From positions 1 to 34,738 of the forward strand of contig LGGM01000010.1 of the NCBI GenBank assembly GCA_001509345.1: 34,738 bases of DNA, written 5' to 3'. How positions within the stretch are numbered: the first letter of the stretch is position 1; each line of letters opens with the position of its first letter. This stretch comes from Clostridiales bacterium 38_11. Lineage in GTDB: Bacteria; Bacillota; Clostridia; Tissierellales; Dethiosulfatibacteraceae. Below are positions 5,683 to 6,762 of this stretch, one piece after another. The position numbers and the translations under genes were made by a program. A model generated the notes under the pieces. It saw only the letters and a program-made list of their open reading frames with translations. It searched no databases and was not told where the DNA came from.

Positions 5683-5877
5683 ATGAAAGAATTGATAGGC
5701 TCTGAGCTTCGAAAAGCAATAGAAGTAATAGAAGCAATTGATAGTGATAGCGATATAATAGAAATAGCATACATCAAAGGAACCAATAAGAATTTCCTAC
5801 CCGTATTAGAAAAACCGATAGTGGTAAGACACTTGAAGATTAAAGATAGACATAACCTGACAGTTGCTTATTTTTAA
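5683..5877 (+). CDS. small conserved-looking hypothetical protein (64 aa)
   Basis: MKELIGSELRKAIEVIEAIDSDSDIIEIAYIKGTNKNFLPVLEKPIVVRHLKIKDRHNLTVAYF; 3-bp gap after frr, followed by a terminator. No family recognised. Confidence 0.6.
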   Translation: MKELIGSELRKAIEVIEAIDSDSDIIEIAYIKGTNKNFLPVLEKPIVVRHLKIKDRHNLTVAYF

Positions 5878-5899
5878 TCCCCGCAAGGGGATTTTGTTT
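5876..5899 (+). terminator. rho-independent terminator after the frr-orf64 unit
   Basis: AATCCCC-GCAA-GGGGATT followed by TTgTTT; overlaps the ORF stop codon. Confidence 0.8.
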
Positions 5900-5903
5900 A
5901 ACC

Positions 5904-6028
5904 CGATGACTAACAGTGCTAAGACTCCCACTTATATAGTGGGAGATAAGCACTGTAGAGTCCCTGGATAACGGTCTCTAAGGTTCAGATGGCGTTTAAA
6001 ACACCATCTGAAACCAAGAACCCTGTTA
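5904..6028 (+). ncRNA. structured RNA in the uppS leader; candidate stand-alone HEARO/omega-RNA-like element
   Basis: ACAGTGCT (5913-5920)/AGCACTGT (5949-5956) enclosing CTCCCACT (5925-5932)/AGTGGGAG (5938-5945); TAGAG-CC (5956-5963)/GG-CTCTA (5973-5980); TTCAGATGG (5984-5992)/CCATCTGAA (6004-6012); tail ACCAAGAACCCTGTTA immediately followed by ATGA (6029-6032). The structure is directly visible; the family assignment is tentative. Confidence 0.55.
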
Positions 6029-6042
6029 ATGAGGTGGATTGA

Positions 6043-6762
6043 TTGACAATAGAGCTCGATAGGAAAAATATTCCAAAACACATTGCAATTATAATGGATG
6101 GCAACCGAAGGTGGGCGAAGAAAAACAAGAAGTTTAAGAATGCGGGCCATAGAGAAGGCATGCTAAGATTTAGAGAAACAGTTGAAGAATGCGTAAGACT
6201 AGGCGTTGAATATTTGACTGTGTATGCTTTTTCAACTGAAAATTGGGGTCGCGAAAATGACGAAATCACTTACCTGATGAATCTTTTGCTGGAATTTTCG
6301 GAAACCATGATAGAACCATTGAATACAGCAGGTGTCCGAATAAATGTTTTCGGGAACCTCGATGACTTCCCCGAAAAATCAAAAGCAGGTATCAGAAAAT
6401 CAATTGAAATAACCAAAAACAACAAAAATCTAAATCTTAACATAGCATTAAGCTATGGTGGAAGAAATGAGATTGTTCATGCTACACGACTAATTGCAAT
6501 GGCAGTCATGGAAAACACAATCAATATAGATGAGATTAGTGAACAACTCATTAGCGATTGTTTGTATTCCAAGGGTCAAAGTGATCCGGATCTTCTAATC
6601 AGAACTAGTGGTGAACAAAGACTAAGCAATTTTATGTTATATCAAATGGCGTATACGGAATTCTATTTCACAGAAGTGCTTTGGCCTGACTTCAAGGCAG
6701 AAGAATTGCATAAGGCGATAGCGGAATATCAGAACAGAAGCAGAAGATTTGGCAAGGAGTAA
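6043..6762 (+). CDS. uppS: isoprenyl transferase (undecaprenyl diphosphate synthase)
   Basis: PKHIAIIMDGNRRWAKKNKK..GHREGMLRFRETVEECVRLGVEYLTVYAFSTENW; TTG start after gaggtgg. Confidence 0.97.
   Translation: MTIELDRKNIPKHIAIIMDGNRRWAKKNKKFKNAGHREGMLRFRETVEECVRLGVEYLTVYAFSTENWGRENDEITYLMNLLLEFSETMIEPLNTAGVRINVFGNLDDFPEKSKAGIRKSIEITKNNKNLNLNIALSYGGRNEIVHATRLIAMAVMENTINIDEISEQLISDCLYSKGQSDPDLLIRTSGEQRLSNFMLYQMAYTEFYFTEVLWPDFKAEELHKAIAEYQNRSRRFGKE

Follow-up and report, generated by a model that had tools for sequence, protein, structure and literature searches.

The compact non-coding stretch between orf64 and uppS in the analysed window (the whole 34,738-nucleotide stretch of contig LGGM01000010.1 from Clostridiales bacterium 38_11) is probably a mobile DNA element of the IS200/IS605 type, one of dozens of copies of a non-autonomous, MITE-like repeat. 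The element is a gene-less sequence of ~131 bp with two imperfect hairpins, one left and one right. Its insertion point lies precisely 3' of TTTAT or a similar T-rich pentamer, and its own last bases are TTTAT, TTGAT or TTAAT, after which host sequence resumes. The first-pass annotation had proposed a minimal inserted element, free of genes and dependent on enzymes in trans, and had compared it with IS200/IS605 elements: both proposals are supported, the latter by the T-rich 5' target, the absence of duplication, the subterminal hairpins and the characteristic right end.

Folding of positions 5880-6060 yielded a minimum free energy of -66.3 kcal/mol (z -6.63), which none of 200 shuffled sequences equalled, bearing out the several strong hairpins described earlier; likewise the tail GAAACCAAGAACCCTGTTA is present, and no nuclease or transposase gene lies beside the element. 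On the other hand its extent, originally given as 5895-6042, was corrected: alignment of the copies in its own genome, together with empty sites in relatives, places the whole element (CCGATGACTAAC...CTGTTAAT) at 5903-6030 of the plus strand (128 bp), an interval that takes the general form CCGATGACTAA..CTGTTRAT in the flank-including alignment. Positions 5895-5902 are host DNA, made up of the end of the orf64 hairpin and T-tract and of the target pentamer TTAAC (5898-5902, plus strand), which lies directly 5' of the element, reads TTGAT or TTAAT in the relatives (ancestrally TTRAT) and corresponds to left pentamers that are mostly TTTAT or similar among 69 copies. The guide formerly placed at 5890-5908 consists of host terminator and the element's first bases. 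At the other end, the terminal pentamer TTAAT (6026-6030, plus strand; TTGAT or TTTAT in other copies), the presumed right cleavage site, is delimited by the right pentamers of the 69 copies, behind which unrelated flanks begin. The ATGA at 6029-6032, once read as an insertion signature, is composed of the last two bases of the element (AT) and two bases of flank (GA), and unrelated bases stand 3' of other copies.

The insertion parts the orf64 hairpin from the uppS ribosome-binding site (6031-6037), which is intact and belongs to a ribosome-binding region (6031-6042) outside the element. The uppS gene (6043-6762, plus strand, TTG start, PF01255 match) is intact as well, and the same context occurs free of the element in two genomes of the same genus (G001 and G002). 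The terminator-like hairpin at 5876-5899 (AATCCCCGCAAGGGGATTTTGTTT) lies directly 5' of the uppS ribosome-binding site in these insertion-free genomes and near it in G006, and may be either a terminator of orf64 or an attenuator of uppS. The short orf64 (5683-5877) is without a Pfam match and, in several genomes of the family, seems to be conserved in its place between frr and uppS.

A search for other copies and for empty sites, as the first-pass annotation had suggested, found both. The orthologous uppS leaders are empty: GGGGATTTTGTTTGAT runs directly into GAGGTGG in G001 and GGGGATTTTGTTTAAT into GGGGTGA in G002, with the junctions GTTTGAT-GAGG and GTTTAAT-GGGG respectively. Since the leaders of both relatives are empty, the uppS element is an insertion and not a leader RNA. 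By joining the flanks of copies from the window's own genome (G000; 1.88 Mb, 97% complete), five further exact empty sites without duplication were identified in G001 (L004, L009, L012, L018 and L021), and the sites L006, L019, L010, L016 and L008 were filled in both species. Therefore the element was active both before and after the species split. In G000 the genome search recovered several partial copies besides more than 20 of near full length; the left-end 15-mer, with up to two mismatches, was found 34 times in G000 (i.e., ~34 copies), 129 times in G001 and 80 times in G002, as against 2, 7 and 1 times for the reversed control. Median nearest-neighbour identity was 0.95-0.96 in G000 and G001, from which most copies are judged not to be very recent.

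At uppS, at the five other empty sites and at nested junctions, the element follows directly on a T-rich pentamer, in most cases TTTAT, and the target is not duplicated. Among 69 distinct full copies, 27 had TTTAT as the left pentamer and the others a variable T-rich one, and the right pentamer, independently of the left, was TTGAT in 53 and TTAAT in 12. Several copies in G001 are nested within the left-hairpin loop of another copy, with the exact junction CTTCTAT-element-AAGTGG; moreover left halves are found stacked and right halves doubled in this genome. Other repeats were noticed as well: in G002, the larger repeats at L225-L239 (around TTTTATCC..CACATAATGCGCGACTC) make up a mosaic of their own, frequently located at contig ends, that carries a CTCAC subfamily of the element, and G032 (L055, 1496-1605, and other loci) harbours a different short IS605-type MITE-like repeat, TTTAT followed by CTTTTGATAAGACTCCCACTTCTATAAGTGGGAG..GAGTTCAC, which has its inner hairpin in common with the uppS element and is found at many contig ends.

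Structurally, the left end forms a two-tier hairpin (5914-5955, plus strand) with an outer stem of 5914-5920/5949-5955 and an inner stem of 5925-5932/5938-5945, supported by the fold and by compensatory changes across families of the order. The hairpin is extended outward by pairing of GACT (5908-5911) with AGTC (5959-5962) on the same strand, and a right-end hairpin follows at 5982-6015 (plus strand), where 8 of 12 pairs are changed on both sides; fold and compensatory changes support both. In the order-level alignment 90.6% of cells pair, and both sides are changed in 20 of 39 pairs: 63 doubly changed cells were observed, compared with 21 +/- 3.8 after shuffling (0 of 500 shuffles reached 63), and sliding the partners destroyed the signal. 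The structure was derived from alignment A2, which holds intact copies; alignment A1, with decayed G002 copies included, gave no consensus fold.

Between the two hairpins lies the central motif GGATAAC (5966-5972, plus strand). The left unit takes in a pairing of TTATCC with the central GGATAA (columns 2-8/70-76), so that the element can pair with part of the host target. On the other side, the base that follows ATAA in the motif covaries with the one that precedes TTTAT at the right end: the combination was C-G in 17 cases, G-C in 10 and G-G in two, with few others (11, 8 and 1 in a smaller set). Thus one central motif can pair with both end sites.

Elements of the IS200/IS605 family insert 3' of a T-rich pentamer (such as TTGAT, ATTAT or TTTAT), are specific on the 5' side only, cause no duplication and carry subterminal palindromes (PMC4227781); in IS608 the cleavage site is chosen by base pairing with guide sequences (PMC5934647). 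Like members of this family (IS608, ISDra2, group A IStrons) and their MITEs, the uppS element lies 3' of such a pentamer without target duplication, has subterminal hairpins on one strand and a right end with its own site, and contains an internal motif that may pair with the end site. It differs in being gene-less, in having no autonomous parent that we could find and in the conservation of its family across the class. Moreover it has one central motif able to pair with both ends, whereas IS608 has separate guides 5' of each hairpin, a classical position at which no confident match was found in the element. An autonomous TnpA+TnpB element in G044, which was retrieved through its protein family rather than through DNA similarity, resembles the uppS element in the two-tier hairpin of its left end (AGTGC..CTCCC..GGGAG..GCACT; 87% over 45 bases, E 1e-6), and the right ends differ. 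Because of the IS200/IS605 traits, the base-paired guides of IS608 and the similar left hairpin in G044, we infer that a Y1 (HUH) tyrosine transposase, supplied in trans, would recognise the hairpins on single-stranded DNA. The central ATAA(C/G) would serve as the guide, base-pairing with the right-end site as well as with the left target, and the excised single-stranded circle would rejoin 3' of a new T-rich pentamer, including those in the left-hairpin loops of other copies.

An autonomous parent was not found: the Y1 and TnpB loci of six genomes are without matching ends, and none carries both. The enzymes of G000 comprise one intact Y1 of the REP-associated type (NF047646) and a decayed remnant; no element copy lies beside the intact gene or within its locus (L032), nor at the Y1 loci of G002, and no neighbour protein recurs beside copies. 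A lagging-strand bias could not be shown. In G001, which has the most copies and 99% completeness, there was no Y1 and no TnpB match. The enzyme may have been lost, may be hidden in an assembly gap or may belong to another kind, and absence from a draft genome is no proof.

This absence speaks for a second, unlikely explanation, namely that the same mobile element is moved by a different enzyme, either one acting in the manner of site-specific recombination or a transposase whose action duplicates two base pairs (AT). Consistent with it, AT ends most left flanks and also the right end, and a site-specific-recombination-like mechanism has been proposed for the TTTAT-associated bcr1 (PMC6542083). 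An AT duplication may conceivably have occurred at some sites; however, left ends of GT, TT, TC or AC beside right ends of AT speak against it, and the 5'-side-only specificity, the hairpin-plus-guide architecture and the similar left end on a true TnpA element argue against another enzyme in general.

The repeat just mentioned, bcr1 of the Bacillus cereus group, is 147-167 bp long (PMC2267715), MITE-like, chromosomal and intergenic, with TTTAT-associated ends, up to 130 copies and no known mobiliser (PMC6542083, PMC3446304). Compared by description only, it resembles the uppS element in approximate size, MITE-like character, intergenic location, TTTAT-associated ends, high copy number and the want of a known mobiliser; it is, however, described as restricted to the B. 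cereus group. Functionally, bcr1 is the closest parallel, and on the best reading the uppS element would work as bcr1 does. REP/REPIN palindromes with TnpA-REP (RAYT) are likewise intergenic, and a related Y1 is encoded in some host genomes (NF047646 in G000); the uppS element differs from them in being much longer, in its T-rich target, in not flanking a Y1 gene and in the lack of a Y1 match in G001.

The compensatory changes and the conservation throughout the class would also be expected of a structured RNA with a selected function that spread as a repeat and whose hairpins act in transcripts (e.g., as 3'-UTR or processing structures), an explanation that we consider quite improbable, and one that is not exclusive of a mobile element. 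Nearly all copies are intergenic (one of 67 examined in the genus was ORF-internal), a terminator-like hairpin lies 5' of the insertion at 15 of 54 sites, and bcr1 copies are often transcribed in UTRs (PMC3446304). On the other hand, copies stand in either orientation next to unrelated genes, species of a single genus differ in which sites are occupied, and decayed and hairpin-deleted copies are common; nor was enrichment behind terminators significant, judged by energy differences between the 54 sites and control windows.

Almost certainly wrong is the identity favoured in the first-pass annotation, a stand-alone HEARO/omega-RNA dependent on IscB in trans. The element is structured, inserted and has a GAACCAAGAA-like tail, and HEARO/omega-RNAs are structured and reside in inserted elements related to IS200/IS605; however, covariance-model scanning against Rfam, HEARO included, found no family that reached its gathering threshold, either in the window or in 12 loci that contain relatives of the element, a relaxed scan gave matches only far below the family cut-offs (none of them HEARO), and the rule of insertion before ATGA or GTGA fails in other copies. 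Searches for IscB (RRXRR, PF14239) had no match in eight element-bearing genomes, which is weak evidence given that the positive control was also silent. The remaining proposal, a cis-regulatory leader RNA of uppS, fits the position directly 5' of the ribosome-binding site and is ruled out by the empty orthologous sites and by the dispersal of copies among unrelated genes.

The family extends well beyond the genus. A sequence profile detected it in 11 genera of the order (13 of 249 genomes), and a covariance model based on 20 intact copies in 24 genera of the class (32 of 391 sampled genomes), several of the 32 being single-contig genomes. Members are 110-150 bp long, have two hairpins and mostly TTTAT at both ends, and have in common the scaffold TTTATCCGATGACTA..GTCCCTGGATAACGATTTCTAAG..CAAGAACTCTGTTTAT. 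Among 72,556 plasmids there was no convincing match to variants of the family, and nothing convincing among phages. One IMG/VR contig carries a family member (L310, 3328-3452; 43 bits, E 1.3e-7), possibly in host DNA or as a prophage-borne copy. An exact 19-mer match in a Lokiarchaeal MAG (L031), with unrelated flanks, and 16-mer matches in IMG/VR were dismissed as chance.

Normally a MITE-like element is similar to a parent within its species and does not outlive it. Here, a non-coding element of ~131 bp has kept a common sequence scaffold, both hairpins and a central motif that covaries, in at least 24 genera, with no parent found in the same genus. The interesting question is what keeps the sequence and structure of such an element across a class, with no Y1 match in its most copy-rich genome, G001. 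A speculative answer, which we hold to be doubtful, is that a widely conserved chromosomal enzyme that processes single-stranded DNA, and not an autonomous parent, may sustain this long-lived gene-less family in trans, the single central guide pairing by turns with the right cleavage site and the left target. What merits pursuit is the conservation across the class with no parent in sight; the literature covered was that of open-licence papers, and an earlier description is possible. A curated model would prevent copies from being misread as leader RNAs or omega-RNAs. Moreover, with many substrates and compensated changes at the presumed guide, the family makes the question of what mobilises orphan palindromic repeats such as bcr1 and REP directly testable.
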